From: Desulfobaccales bacterium
Lineage (GTDB): Bacteria > Desulfobacterota > Desulfobaccia > Desulfobaccales > 0-14-0-80-60-11
Direction of reading: 5' to 3'
DNA length: 36,652 nucleotides
Assembly: GCA_030694005.1 (NCBI GenBank)
Contig: JAUXZG010000258.1
Span: 1-36,652, forward strand
The notes beneath the pieces were generated by a model that worked only from the letters and a program-made list of their open reading frames with translations, did not search any database and had not been told where the DNA came from. The position numbers and the translations under genes are program-made. Positions 13,380 through 20,395 of this stretch are shown in pieces; within the stretch, counting starts at the first letter, position 1; each line of letters starts with the position of its first letter.

Positions 13380-14306
13380 TTAATCAACCTTGGGTCGGGG
13401 CACCAGTTTGGCGGTTTCCAGGATTTCTGGTACCCGTTCTTCCCATTCGATGGCCATGAGGTGGATACCGGCGATGCCTTTCATCTCCAGGCATTCATGG
13501 ATCTGCTCCACCGCGAGCTTGATGCCTTCCGCGGCCTGTTTGTCTTTGGGGACCCCCCGCAGCCGGGCGATACAAGAATCAGGCACGTCCAGGCCGGGGA
13601 CGAATTTTTTCATGTAGTTGGCCATACCCACAGACTTAAGCGGGGTGATGCCCGCCAGGATGTAAGCCTTTTCCGTGAGGCCCATGTCGTTGGCCATTTC
13701 CATGAAATGGCGGAACCTTTCCATGTTGTAGATGCACTGAGTCTGGATGAACTGGGCCCCGGCGGCGATTTTCTTGCCCATGCGCACCACCCGAAAATCC
13801 TGGGGGTCGGCGAAGGGGTTGGCCGCGGCGCCGATGAACATCTGGGGGCGGCCCTGCACCTCGGTGCCGCTGACCATCTTGCCTTCATCCCGCATGGTCT
13901 TCACGGTGTGCAGCAGCATGATGGAGTCCAGGTCATGGACGTTCTTGGACTGGGGATGGTCTCCGAAGGACTGGTGGTCGCCGGTGAGGCACAGCAGGTT
14001 TTTTATCCCTAAGGCCGCGGCCCCCAGGACGTTGCTTTGCAGGCCGATGCGGTTCATATCCCGGGTGACCATCTGCATCACCGGCTCCAGGCCCATCTCC
14101 AGCAGGATTTTGCTGGCGGCCAGGGAACAGAAGCGCACCACCGCGGTCTGGTTGTCGGTGACATTGACGGCGTCGCCACAGCCCTTTAAAAAAGAAGCCT
14201 TATGGCGAAAATGCTCGGCGTCCGCCCCCCGGGGGGGGCCGCATTCGCAAGTTACCGCTTTGTGGCCGCTTTTGAGGATCTTTTCCAGGTTGCTTCCGGC
14301 GGTCAT
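13380..14306 (-). CDS. metF: Methylenetetrahydrofolate reductase
   Basis: VTCECGPPRGADAEHFRHKA, GIKNLLCLTGDHQSFGDHPQSKNVHDLDSI, QFIQTQCIYN; adjacent to metV-type gene. Confidence 0.93.
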   Translation of the reverse strand: MTAGSNLEKILKSGHKAVTCECGPPRGADAEHFRHKASFLKGCGDAVNVTDNQTAVVRFCSLAASKILLEMGLEPVMQMVTRDMNRIGLQSNVLGAAALGIKNLLCLTGDHQSFGDHPQSKNVHDLDSIMLLHTVKTMRDEGKMVSGTEVQGRPQMFIGAAANPFADPQDFRVVRMGKKIAAGAQFIQTQCIYNMERFRHFMEMANDMGLTEKAYILAGITPLKSVGMANYMKKFVPGLDVPDSCIARLRGVPKDKQAAEGIKLAVEQIHECLEMKGIAGIHLMAIEWEERVPEILETAKLVPRPKVD

Positions 14307-14974
14307 TTTTTGAGTTCCTCCCTAATCATGGTGCGTAACCCGCCGTCGCGGCTGGTGGACCAATCTTTATATAATTTGACCTCAACCAGGTTGTGCAGGT
14401 GGCCGAGGTTTTTCAGGCGGTCATAGATGAGCTGCCAGATGCAGGGGATGGAGCCTTTGCCCACTTCGCAAATTCCCTCAGAGGAGCCGCCGCAGGGGCC
14501 GTTCAAGAGTTGTTTGGCGCAGCGGGTGATGGGACACAGCCCGCCGAAGTGGTGGATGATGCAGTTACCGCAGGCCTGGCAGAATTCTTTCCACACCCCG
14601 TGCTCTTGAGAGCCGCCGATGCAGGTGGTGTTGATACCGGGATAAACATTAAGATAGGGGTAACGGGCCACCACATATTGGGGCCCGACGCTGCAGGCAA
14701 TGGAGACCAGGGCGTCGGCGTCCGTCACCAGGTCGTCCAGGGGTTCAATGTATTCCGGATCGCATTGCCTCTCACAGGTGTATTCTTTGATTTCCAGTTC
14801 GTTGCCGCTGGCTTTGCGGGCGATGCGCAACTCCGTGGCCAGGATGGCCACCTCTTTTTCCCCGCCCACATTACAGACGGTGACGCAACCTTTACAGCCG
14901 GCTACCACCACCTTTTTGAAATCCTTGATCATCTCCAGGATTTCCGCCAGGGGTTTTGATTCCCCGATGACCAT
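14303..14974 (-). CDS. metV: Methylenetetrahydrofolate reductase C-terminal domain protein (MetV-type, Cys-rich)
   Basis: Cys-rich (CKGCVTVCNVGG, CERQCDPEY, CQACGNCIIHHFGGLCPITRC) with GPCGG; 4-nt overlap with metF. Confidence 0.9.
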   Translation of the reverse strand: MVIGESKPLAEILEMIKDFKKVVVAGCKGCVTVCNVGGEKEVAILATELRIARKASGNELEIKEYTCERQCDPEYIEPLDDLVTDADALVSIACSVGPQYVVARYPYLNVYPGINTTCIGGSQEHGVWKEFCQACGNCIIHHFGGLCPITRCAKQLLNGPCGGSSEGICEVGKGSIPCIWQLIYDRLKNLGHLHNLVEVKLYKDWSTSRDGGLRTMIREELKK

Positions 14975-15023
14975 AGGGTTCCTCCTCTCCCATTAATGCA
15001 AAAACCGCGCTAACTAACAAATA

Positions 15024-15170
15024 ATGGCCCCTCCGCCCGGTAACGGGTGGTGAGGCGCTGGCCACCTAAGAGCGGAACCGCGCCCACCTGGGAAGGCCTG
15101 GGTAGATACTCAGTTCGCTTAGGGGCGAGTCAACCTCTTAAGAAGGCTAGCCTTACCAAAGAGTTTTGTA
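15024..15170 (-). ncRNA. Candidate structured 5' leader of metV-metF (unassigned)
   Basis: Between a minus-strand TTGACA-N17-TAAAAT promoter and metV. Contains stem TGGCC/GGCCA enclosing CCTC/GAGG and a 6-bp hairpin CGCCCG(gtaa)CGGGTG, plus CCTAAG/CTTAGG enclosing smaller hairpins. Complementarity by eye; no covariance evidence. Confidence 0.4.
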
Positions 15171-15183
15171 CAACTATTCACAT

Positions 15184-15212
15184 ATTTTATGAACCAGGGG
15201 GCATTTTGTCAA
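15184..15212 (-). promoter_or_regulatory. Sigma70-like promoter for metV-metF
   Basis: Minus strand TTGACA (15212-15207), 17-bp spacer, TAAAAT (15189-15184). Confidence 0.65.
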
Positions 15213-15268
15213 ATATAAAAAGCCGGCAGATTTTTTGTTCAGGGTATTCTTAGAGGAAAAAATATTTA

Positions 15269-15297
15269 TTGACAAACCCTGGCAATGTTGTTTAAAA
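15269..15297 (+). promoter_or_regulatory. Sigma70-like promoter for fhs
   Basis: TTGACA (15269-15274), 17-bp spacer, TTAAAA (15292-15297), about 150 bp upstream of fhs. Confidence 0.55.
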
Positions 15298-15323
15298 GGG
15301 GAGACTATGTGAAAAAAAGTATG

Positions 15324-15420
15324 AACCCTGGCGTGATCTGACCCAGAGGGAAGCGCGCTAATGGGTTGCTTTGTGACTATCCCGGTCATTGGTATATGCC
15401 GGGAATTAAACAGTAATCAC
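15324..15420 (+). ncRNA. Candidate structured 5' leader of fhs (unassigned)
   Basis: Stem AACCC-TGGCG / CGCTA-at-GGGTT (15324-15367) enclosing TCTGaccCAGA, then stem GTGA/TCAC (15373-15420) enclosing TCCCGG/CCGGGA. By eye only. Confidence 0.4.
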
Positions 15421-15445
15421 AAAACCTTAAGGAGGCTAGGTTTCT

Positions 15446-17230
15446 ATGGCGAAGTATGATCCCACCAAACAATCGGACTGGCAGATTGCGGAAATTGCCG
15501 AAGCGGAAATGATTCCCTTCGACACGATGTGCGACAAACTGGGAATCCCTAAAGATGAGCGCATCCCTATGGGTCAGAAAATCGGGCGCGTGGACTACAT
15601 GAAGTGCCTGGAGCGCCTGAAGGCCAAGCCCGACGGCAAGTACATCGAGGTCACCGCCATCACCCCCACCCCCCTGGGCGAAGGCAAATCCACCTCCTCC
15701 ATGGGCCTCATCGAAGGCCTGGGCAAACGCGGCATGAACGTGGGCGGCTGCATCCGCCAGCCTTCTGGCGGCCCCACCATGAACATCAAAGGCTCCGCCG
15801 CGGGTGGCGGCATCTCCCTGCTCATCCCCTTAACCGACTTCTCCCTGGGCCTCACCGGCGACATCAACAACATCATGAACGCCCACAACCTGGCCATGGT
15901 GGCCGCCACCTCCCGGCTGCAGCACGAGTTCAACTATGACGACGCCCAGTTGGCCAAACGGAATTTGAAGCGCCTGAACATCGATCCGAAAAACTTCGAA
16001 ATGGGCTGGATCATGGACTTCTGCGCCCAGGCGCTGCGCCACATCATCATCGGCATGGGCGGCAAGATGGACGGCTTCATGATGAAGTCCTCCTTCGGCA
16101 TCGCGGTGTCCTCGGAAGTGATGGCCATCTTATCGGTGTTCACCTCTCTGGAAGACTTGCGGAAGCGGTTGAACGAAATGGTGGTGTGCTACGATAAGAA
16201 GGGCAACCCCATCACCACCGGCGACCTGGAAGTGGGCAACGCCATGACCGCCTGGATGGTGCCCTCCATCAACCCCACCCTGATGCAGACCGTGGAGAAG
16301 CAGCCCTGCTTCGTGCACGCCGGGCCCTTCGCCAACATCGCCGTGGGCCAGTCCTCCATCGTCGCCGACCAGATCGGTTTGAAGCTGTTTGATTACCATA
16401 TCACCGAGTCCGGCTTCGGCGCGGACATCGGCTTTGAGAAGTTCTGGAATGTCAAGTGCCGCTTCAGCGGCCTCATTCCCCACGTATCGGTGATCACCTC
16501 CACCGTGCGTGGCCTGAAGCACCACGGGGTCAACGCCGGCTCCCTGCCCTGCCCGCCGGGCAAACCGATTCCCAAAGAATATTTCTCGCCCTCGCCAAAG
16601 ACCTTTGCATGGCTGGAAGACGGGGTGGAAAACCTCTGCCAGCATATCCGCACCGTCAAGAAAGCCGGCATCACCCCGGTGGTGTGCATCAACTCCTTCC
16701 ATTTCGACAGCGACGAGGAGCACGCCCTCATCCGCCGTCGGGCCGAAGCCGAAGGCGCCATGGTGGCCGTGTCCCGGCACTGGCAGTTCGGCGGCGAAGG
16801 CGCCCTGGAATTCGCCGATGTCGTTATGGATGCCTGCAAAGAAAAACCCAAGTTCAAGTTCCTCTATCCCAACGAGCTGCCCCTTCGCAAGCGCGTTGAA
16901 CTCATCGCCAAGGAAGTGTACGGCGCGGCGGGCGTAGCCTTTGCCCCCGAGGCCAACGCCAAGGCGGAGCGCTTCGAGAAGGATCCCAAGTACAACGAAT
17001 ACGCCACCATGATGGTGAAGACGCACCTGTCCCTGACCCATGATCCCACGATCAAAGGCACCCCCAAGGGTTGGACCCTGCCGGTGCGGGACTTCCTGAT
17101 TTACGGCGGCGCCAAGTTCATCTGCCCGGTGTGCGGCGCTATCAGCCTCATGCCCGGCACCAGCTCCGACCCGGCCTACCGGCGGGTGGACGTGGATGTC
17201 AAGACCGGCAACGTCAAGGGAATATTCTAA
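15446..17230 (+). CDS. fhs: Formate--tetrahydrofolate ligase
   Basis: [17 protein letters not shown]-loop, [34 protein letters not shown]-terminal [25 protein letters not shown]; preceded by AAGGAGG. Confidence 0.94.
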
Positions 17231-17368: not shown

Positions 17369-17701
17369 AAGACCTCTGAAAAAATAGTTATACACAGCGT
17401 CATTAATTGAACATGCACAAGGAGGTTCCATTTTTGTCATTCTGAGCCGCCGCAGGCGGTGAAGAATCTCGAATTTACCGGCAATCATGAGACCCTTCGC
17501 CTGCGGCTCAGGGTGACAAAAAGGGCAGTATTAACGTGGGAAAACCATAATCATGTCCAATTATTTATGACGCTATGTATAATTGGGGTAATTTCTCTAG
17601 TGGGCGGCCAGAGACGGCCGCCCCACCTCTTTAATTTCTCTGGTGGGGCGGGCCTCCGTGCCCGCCATAACTAGTTTTTCCTGTCATTTTTCAGAGGTCT
17701 T
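17369..17701. mobile_element. MITE-like non-autonomous nested inverted-repeat element
   Basis: Perfect 15-bp terminal inverted repeats AAGACCTCTGAAAAA (17369-17383) / TTTTTCAGAGGTCTT (17687-17701); inner IR TTATACAyAGCGTCAT... (17388-17414 vs 17552-17582); core IR TTTTTGTCAyyCTGAGCCGC (about 17431-17524). Confidence 0.75.
17642..17666. repeat. REP-like palindrome GGTGGGGCrGGCCTCCGTGCCyGCC (copy 1)
   Basis: Nearly identical copy at 20520-20544; both self-complementary GGCrGGC...GCCyGCC. Confidence 0.75.
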
Positions 17702-17933
17702 TATTTGGTTTCAGGTAGCCCAGGCCCCTGGGCCGGGCTTTTTCACCAGACCTTGGCTAAACTGAGGCAGAAAATGTGGAAGGGCGTTGCTAGCCAATCA
17801 GGCAAAATCGCTTCGGCCGGCCGGAAAACGACCGGCCCGGGGCGTCTGTTCTATCTGGAGTTGCGGTTTGTTTGCCCTTGCCAATCTTTTCCCTAGCCCC
17901 TCATCCCTTAAGGAATTCTTGATTTTTGTTTTT

Positions 17934-17947
17934 GTGATATTTATCAC
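17934..17947. promoter_or_regulatory. CRP/FNR-superfamily-type operator candidate
   Basis: Perfect 14-bp palindrome GTGATATTTATCAC (TGTGA-N6-TCAC type) about 130 bp upstream of the nfnA-like gene. Confidence 0.4.
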
Positions 17948-18075
17948 TTGCATCTTTTCCCCCACCCGTGGTAAAAATCCAACGATGTAGCAGAGACCAA
18001 GGCAGGCTTTGAAATGAGCCGGCTGGGACAGTCACGGCGGAAGAAAATTTTCACCCATTGAGGAGAGTTGCGCCT

Positions 18076-18933
18076 ATGTTTGAAATAGTGGAGCGTCAGG
18101 AAATGGCCCAGGGGACGGTGGTGAGCAATTGGGTCAAGGCTCCCAAGATCGCCAAAAAGGCCAAACCGGGGCAGTTCGTCATCTTAAGGGCCAACGAAAA
18201 GGGGGAGCGCATCCCCCTGACCATGGCGGACACCGATCCGGCCAAGGGCCTGATCAACATTATCTACCAGGTGGTGGGCAAAAGCACCGCCCTGTTTAAG
18301 ACCCTCAAAGTGGGAGACGGCTATCTGGACGTCATCGGCCCTCTGGGGCAGCCCACTCATCTGGACAAAGTCGGCAAGGTGGTCTGCGTCGGCGGCGGCA
18401 CCGGCGTGGCCGTGGTGCACCCCATCACCCGGGGTTTGAAACAGGTGGGCAACCAGGTTTTCGCGGTCATCGGGGCCCGGAACAAAGATTTGCTCATCCT
18501 GGAAGACCAGATGCGGGCCGCCTCCCATGAGCTGATGGTCTGCACCGACGACGGCTCATACGGCCACCACGGTTTTGTCACCGACATGCTGAAGAAAGTG
18601 CTCACCGAGCACCAGGACATCGCCCTGGCGGTGTGCATCGGCCCGGTGCCCATGATGAAGTTCTGCTGCAAAATGACCAAAGAATTCGGGGTCAAGACCC
18701 TGGTGAGCCTTAATCCCATCATGGTGGACGGCACCGGCATGTGCGGCTGTTGCCGGGTGACGGTGGGCGGCAAGAGGAAGTTCGCCTGCGTGGACGGCCC
18801 GGAGTTTGACGGCCACGAGACCGACTTTGAGGAGCTTACGGCCCGGCTTAAGGGTTATCTGGACCTGGAGAAAGTCTCCTATGACGAGTTCAAGGCAGCC
18901 CACGGCTCCGGGAAATGCTCCTGTTGCAGCTGA
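18076..18933 (+). CDS. nfnA: NfnA/GltB-gamma-like FAD/NAD-binding ferredoxin:NADP+ oxidoreductase subunit
   Basis: VVCVGGGTGVAVVHPITRGL, [2Fe-2S]-binding cysteines CGCCRVTVGGKRKFACVDGPEFDG; next to GltA/NfnB-like gene. ATG at 18076 preferred over TTG at 18058 because AGGAGAG precedes it. Confidence 0.88.
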   Translation: MFEIVERQEMAQGTVVSNWVKAPKIAKKAKPGQFVILRANEKGERIPLTMADTDPAKGLINIIYQVVGKSTALFKTLKVGDGYLDVIGPLGQPTHLDKVGKVVCVGGGTGVAVVHPITRGLKQVGNQVFAVIGARNKDLLILEDQMRAASHELMVCTDDGSYGHHGFVTDMLKKVLTEHQDIALAVCIGPVPMMKFCCKMTKEFGVKTLVSLNPIMVDGTGMCGCCRVTVGGKRKFACVDGPEFDGHETDFEELTARLKGYLDLEKVSYDEFKAAHGSGKCSCCS

Positions 18934-18976
18934 GAACTGAGCCTTTTAAGGCCGTAAGCCAGGGAGGAGAAGAATA

Positions 18977-20395
18977 ATGACCGAAGAAGTAAAACCCCCC
19001 AAAAGAGAGAAAATCCCCCGGCAAAAAATGCCGGAGCAGGAGCCCAAGGTAAGGGCCCGCAACTTTCAAGAAGTGCCCTTCGGCTTATCCCCGGAACTGG
19101 CCCAAAAGGAAGCGGAGCGCTGCATCCAGTGCAAAGACCCCCGCTGCAAGCAGGGCTGCCCGGTGGAGATCGACGTCCCCAGGTTCATCAAAGAAATCAA
19201 GGAAGGCGACTTTGAAGCGGCTATCAGAACCCTGTGGGAAATGAACGCCCTGCCCGCCATTTGCGGGAGGGTCTGCCCCCAGGAAATCCAGTGCGAAGGT
19301 CTCTGCGTCATCGGCAAAAAGGAAGAGCCGGTGGCCATCGGCAACCTGGAGCGCTTCGCCGCAGATTACCAGCGCCTCCACGGCCGGGACATCCTGCCCC
19401 CCAAGGCGGACCCCACGGGCAAGAAGGTGGCGGTGGTGGGGGCCGGCCCGGCCGGCCTGACCGTGGCCGGGGACTTGATCCTCAAGGGCCACGAGGTCAC
19501 CGTTTTCGAGGCTCTCCACGCCCCGGGCGGGGTGCTGCTTTACGGCATCCCGGAGTTCCGCCTGCCCAAGGAGATCGTGGCCCACGAATGCCATTATCTG
19601 GAGAGGCTGGGAGTCAAGATTCTGGTAAACCAGGTCGTCGGCCGCACGGACACCGTGGACGAGCTTTTCGAACAGGGCTTTGACGCGGTCTTCCTGGCCG
19701 TGGGCGCCGGGCTGCCCGTGTTCCTCAACGTCCCCGGGGAAAATCTGATCGGCATTTACTCCGCCAACGAATATCTCACCCGGGCCAACCTGATGAAGGC
19801 CTACGCCTTCCCGGAATACGACACCCCGCTGGTGAAAGGCAAGAACGTGGCCACCTTCGGGGCCGGCAACGTGTCCATGGACTCGGCCCGCACCGCCCTG
19901 CGCATGGGCGCGGACCATTCCTACATCATCTACCGCCGCTCCGAGGCGGAGATGCCGGCCCGGGCCGCCGAGATCCACCATGCCCATGAAGAAGGCGTGG
20001 AATTCATGCTGCTCAGCGCGCCCACCCGCTTCCTCGGCGATGAGGAAGGAAGGGTCAAGGCGGTGGAATGCCTGCGCATGGAACTGGGCGAACCCGACGC
20101 CTCCGGGCGGCGGCGGCCCGTGCCCCTCGAAGGCTCAGAGTTCATCGTGGACATCGACCTGGCGGTGATCTCCATCGGCGCCGGGGCCAACCCCCTGCTC
20201 ACCAAGACCACCCCGGGCCTGGCCCTGAACAAATGGGGCTATATCATCGCGGACCCCAAAACCGGCAAGACCATGAAACCCAAGGTCTGGGCCGGCGGCG
20301 ACATCGTCACCGGCTCGGCCACCGTGATCCTGGCCATGGGCGCCGGACGCCTATCGGCCAACTCCATCCACGACTTCCTGACCATGGGGTGGTAG
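18977..20395 (+). CDS. nfnB: NfnB / glutamate synthase small subunit-like FAD/FeS oxidoreductase
   Basis: CIQCKDPRCKQGCPVEIDVPRFI, CGRVCPQEIQCEGLCV, VVGAGPAGLTVAGDLILKGHEVTVFE, GAGNVSMDSARTALRMGA. Confidence 0.88.
   Translation: MTEEVKPPKREKIPRQKMPEQEPKVRARNFQEVPFGLSPELAQKEAERCIQCKDPRCKQGCPVEIDVPRFIKEIKEGDFEAAIRTLWEMNALPAICGRVCPQEIQCEGLCVIGKKEEPVAIGNLERFAADYQRLHGRDILPPKADPTGKKVAVVGAGPAGLTVAGDLILKGHEVTVFEALHAPGGVLLYGIPEFRLPKEIVAHECHYLERLGVKILVNQVVGRTDTVDELFEQGFDAVFLAVGAGLPVFLNVPGENLIGIYSANEYLTRANLMKAYAFPEYDTPLVKGKNVATFGAGNVSMDSARTALRMGADHSYIIYRRSEAEMPARAAEIHHAHEEGVEFMLLSAPTRFLGDEEGRVKAVECLRMELGEPDASGRRRPVPLEGSEFIVDIDLAVISIGAGANPLLTKTTPGLALNKWGYIIADPKTGKTMKPKVWAGGDIVTGSATVILAMGAGRLSANSIHDFLTMGW

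Follow-up and report, generated by a model that had tools for sequence, protein, structure and literature searches.

Candidate Rex-type operators at the divergent metVF and fhs promoters and at sulfate-reduction genes

The divergent promoters of metVF and fhs each carry a conserved 18-bp block behind the -10 box, and it is reasonably likely, judging from sequence comparison, that these blocks are two Rex-type operators through which metVF and fhs would be co-repressed together with sulfate-reduction genes. The metVF and fhs genes represent the methyl branch of the Wood-Ljungdahl pathway, which runs in the oxidative direction in acetate-oxidising sulfate reducers. The window, the whole 36,652-nt stretch of DNA analysed here, is one contig of a 2.6-Mb draft genome. 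The coordinated control of metVF and fhs proposed in the initial annotation is well supported by an arrangement, promoters and spacing found in 22 of 22 genomes and by TGTGAA blocks of one kind at both promoters.

The metVF/fhs locus, its promoters and two 18-bp blocks

On the minus strand, metV (methylene-THF reductase C-terminal domain protein; 14303-14974; PF12225, 114 bits) is overlapped at its end by metF (methylene-THF reductase; 13380-14306; PF02219, 138.8 bits), while fhs (formate--tetrahydrofolate ligase; 15446-17230; NF010032, 1011.6 bits; PF01268) is encoded on the plus strand. Gene calls thus agree with the initially described 471-bp gap (14975-15445) between metV (-) and fhs (+). 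The divergent metV/fhs pair is present in all 22 family genomes compared, with the pair of G014 read on its contig C155, and these genomes yielded 21 distinct metV-fhs intergenic sequences of 353-471 bp. The 21 orthologous regions were aligned; they are related by descent and are therefore not independent observations. Relatives with a close metV orthologue are Deltaproteobacteria MAGs, some of them labelled Desulfobacca acetoxidans. No close metV orthologue was found in the sister family and divergent fhs is absent at its best metV loci.

Alignment of the intergenic region across relatives had been proposed as a check in the initial annotation, and it showed that the gene order, the two promoters and the spacing of the promoters are retained in 22/22 family genomes. 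The two divergent promoters are present as sequence matches where they had been placed. The metV promoter, TTGACA-N17-TAAAAT on the minus strand, matches the consensus at 11 of 12 positions, with an invariant -35 box (15207-15212; 21/21 distinct orthologous regions) and a -10 box (15184-15189) of mean consensus frequency 0.87. The fhs promoter, TTGACA-N17-TTAAAA on the plus strand, has its -35 box at 15269-15274 within the conserved TTGACAAAC (8 of the 9 columns of 15269-15277 invariant), preceded by an UP-element-like A/T tract (15257-15268, plus strand; mean consensus frequency 0.79). Its -10 box (15292-15297) is weak, with 3/6 matches, and is absent from the list of the consensus scan, which found 3 promoter-like sites versus 0.7 expected in shuffles. 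Despite this weak consensus match, an AT-rich -10 is kept at the fhs position in all relatives, the -10 region TTAAAAG (15292-15298, plus strand) aligning with TTAAAT or TTATAT. The fhs Shine-Dalgarno sequence AAGGAGG (15429-15435, plus strand) lies in a stretch where 7 of 9 columns (15428-15436) are invariant. Since neither -35 box varies among the 21 distinct orthologous regions, the promoter pair is more than chance, and the -35/-10 pairs stand at the fixed spacing expected of sigma-70-type divergent promoters. The -35 boxes are 56 bp apart in the window, as initially reported, and 53-59 bp apart across the 21 regions. The promoter spacers are poorly conserved (mean consensus frequency 0.53 and 0.63).

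An AT-rich stretch between the promoters had been suggested to hold a shared operator. The stretch is held in length but mostly not in sequence (15213-15256; mean consensus frequency 0.56), which makes a shared central operator unlikely, and this candidate was rejected.

The strongest conserved feature of the region, absent from the initial annotation, is the pair of 18-bp blocks, which we describe as candidate operators; each promoter has one, located downstream of its -10 box. O1 (ATGTGAATAGTTGTACAA; 15166-15183, minus strand) is located directly behind the metV -10 box over the assumed start and is invariant in 10 of 18 columns. O2 (ATGTGAAAAAAAGTATGA; 15307-15324, plus strand), located behind the fhs -10 box and common to the dsrA promoter, is invariant in 15 of 18 columns and is followed by a conserved extension, ACCCTGGCG (15325-15333, plus strand; mean consensus frequency 0.84). 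Mean consensus frequency reaches 0.85 for O1 and 0.98 for O2, compared with 0.45-0.63 for the spacers, the centre and the metV leader. Both blocks carry TGTGAA and each begins about 0-9 bp past its -10 box. O1 has a good left half and a right half reading TGTACAA (TTACAA in g5); O2 possesses the left half only, its right half GTATGA not mirroring the left. The centre-to-centre distance of O1 and O2 stays at 136-142 bp across the 21 regions although the leaders vary widely in length.

Related sites at sat, dsrA and other genes

The promoter-plus-block pattern (TTGACA, then TGTGAAWA) has many matches across the 22 genomes versus a single control match. After matches inside coding frames (e.g. 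L102, L106 and L125) were discarded, the pattern leads to genes for a TauE-type exporter, a CBS-domain protein, Sat and ATP synthase; the g2 matches L103, L122 and L140 sit at the start of a long gene. A separate palindrome search gave a mixed list, from which only sites recurring before the same gene were used. At every readable sat locus (18 family genomes), a palindrome that is complete or nearly so (e.g. ATGTGAAATTTTTCACAT) is located behind the promoter; seven of these loci encode one Sat family and 11 a second that is 31-34% identical to the first. The palindrome reads ATGTGAAATATTTCACAT in the window's own genome and ATGTGAAAAGTTTCTCTT in its weakest form (G007).

Each family member uses one of the two distant Sat proteins, and both kinds share the palindrome behind the promoter. 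At most sat promoters a second GTGAAAAA-like stretch is found just ahead of the -35 box. ATP-synthase genes (atpI-like and atpF-like) of two genomes carry ATGTGAAAAGATTCATTT and ATGTGAAAAGATACACAT behind a TTGACA promoter.

A symmetric matrix was built from 16 sites at the sat, TauE, CBS and atp genes, excluding metV, fhs and dsrA. It scores O1 at 16.4 bits, the best of the region and rank 3 in 36.6 kb, a value unreached in 60 shuffles of the region; in 18 of the 21 orthologous regions O1 is likewise the top matrix site. The metV site is consequently supported by its resemblance to the predicted sites of other genes. O2 scores weakly at 7.2 bits, next after O1 in the window's region and 17th in the whole window; support for the putative fhs site comes from its deep conservation and near-identity with the dsrA site, not from the symmetric matrix.

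With one mismatch allowed, TGTGAAAAAAAGYATRA matches at fhs and, in most genomes, at one other place that recurs, compared with no matches for the reversed-pattern control in 22 genomes and one in a second such search. This second site, present once per genome, follows a TTGACA promoter ahead of dsrA (TIGR02064, 550 bits) and is near-identical to O2. It reads TTGTGAAAAAAAGGATAA and is also found in 7 of 7 sister-family genomes. Its right half is GGATAA and its left half is not mirrored. At both fhs and dsrA, conservation runs past the 18 bp (RCCC) in the family.

Candidate regulators and alternative readings

All but one of the 22 genomes encode Rex (PF06971), and the one without it is 72% complete. 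The Rex of the window's own genome is full-length, with HTH and NAD-binding domains (NF003993, 299 bits; PF02629), and matches solved Rex structures down to 5.6e-51. The Rex operator has been described as TTGTGAAW4TTCACAA (PMC2883068). In Desulfovibrio vulgaris, Rex responds to NADH/NAD+ and represses sat (PMC7531388, citing Christensen 2015), and co-regulation by Rex has been described for many genes of sulfate reduction (PMC4215793). The same kind of site is present at a known Rex target, sat, in the 18 family genomes tested. Strict site patterns matched nothing in the rex loci, so that autoregulation of rex was not seen under those patterns. Rex sites have been called identical to HcpR1 sites (PMC5701242), which makes Rex and HcpR-type sites inseparable by geometry, and the geometry of the sat palindrome fits both. 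In the main CRP/FNR protein the recognition helix, GTISETLSR, is FNR-like, and Ser occupies the position of Arg180 of E. coli CRP and Desulfovibrio HcpR (10 proteins compared); the arginine of TTGTGA-specific HcpR/CRP proteins is thus missing from it. Loss of Arg180 has been linked to the use of TTTGA in place of TTGTGA sites (PMC545781). Because Ser replaces Arg180, Rex is the better candidate, and the binder of the predicted sites is probably Rex.

We consider it unlikely that the sites belong instead to a CRP/FNR-family (HcpR-like) regulator repressing near the start. Such a regulator would be in keeping with the TTGTGA-N6-TCACAA HcpR sites predicted at sat and apsAB in Desulfovibrio, overlapping the -10 boxes (PMC545781), and a CRP/FNR-type HTH match is found in 22/22 genomes, with extra CRP/FNR paralogues in some. 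A GTGAT-N4-ATCAC palindrome upstream of nfnAB is moreover fully conserved, which suggests that a CRP/FNR-type regulator is probably active. However, with Ser in place of Arg180, TTGA(C/T)-type sites would be expected, and every site of the class studied here reads GTGAA, not GTGAT. The inner base T of the nfnAB palindrome appears to fit the FNR-like CRP protein better than Rex. Confining Rex to metV, sat, TauE, CBS and atp and assigning the fhs/dsrA block to an undescribed DNA-binding protein as a separate asymmetric element is improbable in our estimate, even though O2 and the dsrA site have TGTGAAAAAAAGKATRA in common, continue into RCCC in the family and miss the mirrored half, the sister family shows no variation in the dsrA form either, and the symmetric matrix scores O2 weakly. 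The position behind the promoter and the left half TGTGAA are the same as in the palindromic class, and a similar half-degenerate site is present at a 3-hydroxyacyl-CoA dehydrogenase promoter in 4 genomes of another family; in C. kluyveri this function has been connected with Rex (PMC6405883). The proposal that TGTGAAAAAAAGKATRA at fhs and dsrA is an asymmetric operator and no Rex dimer site, bound by an undescribed regulator or by Rex one-sidedly, we hold to be rather unlikely; if true, it would tie the C1 pathway to dissimilatory sulfite reductase in these sulfate reducers.

The nfnAB palindrome, TTGTGATATTTATCACTT, is located at 17932-17949 upstream of nfnAB-like genes (about 18058-20395) and is retained letter for letter in 8 of 8 relatives possessing the region. 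Between fhs and nfnAB, an inverted repeat, TGTCATTCTGAGCCGCCGCAGG...CCTGCGGCTCAGGGTGACA (17436-17520), looks like a dispersed palindromic element. The 3-hydroxyacyl-CoA dehydrogenase gene of the other family of the phylum (G106, G163, G034 and G071) is preceded by TTGACA...TATAAT...ATGTGAAAAAAAGAAC, which contains the same A-rich half site beyond the class.

Readings at the RNA level carry far less weight than the Rex-type operators. From the assumed starts, leaders of about 203 nt (metV) and 142 nt (fhs) would result, in line with the initial estimate of roughly 140-200 nt. The accompanying suggestion that they are structured did not hold: Rfam at gathering and permissive thresholds returned only chance matches to snoRNA, lncRNA and sRNA families, RNAalifold over 21 sequences gave a consensus energy of 0 for both leaders, and no family-wide fold was found. 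The metV leader ranges in length between 99 and 203 nt, with a mean consensus frequency of 0.45, and folds no better than shuffles (z 0.15). Although the fhs leader alone reaches z -2.3 against shuffles and alignments of genera g1, g6 and g7 surpass their column shuffles in folding, at z -3.1 and -4.3, it is highly improbable that either leader, or both, acts as a riboswitch or another kind of structured RNA regulator, given the missing Rfam match, the zero consensus energy and the variable metV leader. A stable hairpin of the fhs leader, CCCGG...CCGGG (about 15380-15403), is located between O2 and the Shine-Dalgarno sequence and is seen only in g1, g6 and g7. We also weighed whether the fhs block is the start of an attenuation leader peptide, GTG AAA AAA AGT ATG..., encoding MKKSM. 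In favour of this, most genomes have a G-rich Shine-Dalgarno-like stretch ahead of the GTG and show little change in the first five codons, but the frames past MKKSM differ in sequence and in length (10 to >40 codons), two of them have no stop before fhs, no Shine-Dalgarno-like stretch is found ahead of the dsrA copy, and conservation is at the base level. The peptide, which we regard as very unlikely, was rejected because the frame is unconserved beyond about MKKSM and its length and stop vary. A role in RNA cannot explain the metV block since most of its TGTGAA half would lie upstream of the start assumed from the promoter position.

A predicted redox-responsive module and its relation to known systems

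The Rex-type reading would describe a compact divergent module in which back-to-back sigma-70-type promoters are each followed by one 18-bp operator of the TTGTGAA-N4-TTCACAA kind. At a low NADH/NAD+ ratio, Rex would bind over or just behind the start and block RNA polymerase at both promoters; the position of the blocks near the start would suit repression. A rise in NADH would release Rex and metVF and fhs would be made together. The same regulator would also act over sat, dsrAB, the TauE-type exporter gene, the CBS-domain gene and the ATP-synthase genes, and a regulator common to these genes would therefore tie the methyl branch to sulfate respiration. A link of the methyl branch to sat and dsrAB is physiologically sensible because the branch is oxidative in acetate-oxidising sulfate reducers. 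The prediction is that a single redox switch would govern the two halves of sulfate reduction with acetate oxidation, namely the C1 (methyl) and the sulfate-to-sulfide branches, and exact 18-bp targets are now available for binding tests. The Rex-type regulon of sulfate reducers would thereby extend to metVF and fhs, a reach that a search of open-licence papers, by title and abstract, did not turn up.

Folate and C1 genes controlled by riboswitches are similar to the present locus in having leaders of 100-200 nt, here before both metV and fhs, but the leaders described here possess no family match, conserved structure or conserved length. The HcpR regulon of Desulfovibrio shares the TTGTGA-N6-TCACAA geometry and a predicted sat target that overlaps with Rex. 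It differs in that the arginine associated with recognising TTGTGA is absent from the main CRP protein here and in that the sites here read GTGAA with an A/T-rich core. The closest likeness is to the Rex regulon, exemplified by sat in Desulfovibrio vulgaris: a palindrome close to the promoter start that follows the TTGTGAA-N4-TTCACAA scheme, sat as a target, an encoded Rex and co-controlled sulfate-reduction genes. In contrast to that regulon, the putative fhs and dsrA sites here are asymmetric with one strong half, and the predicted targets include the divergent metVF and fhs promoters.
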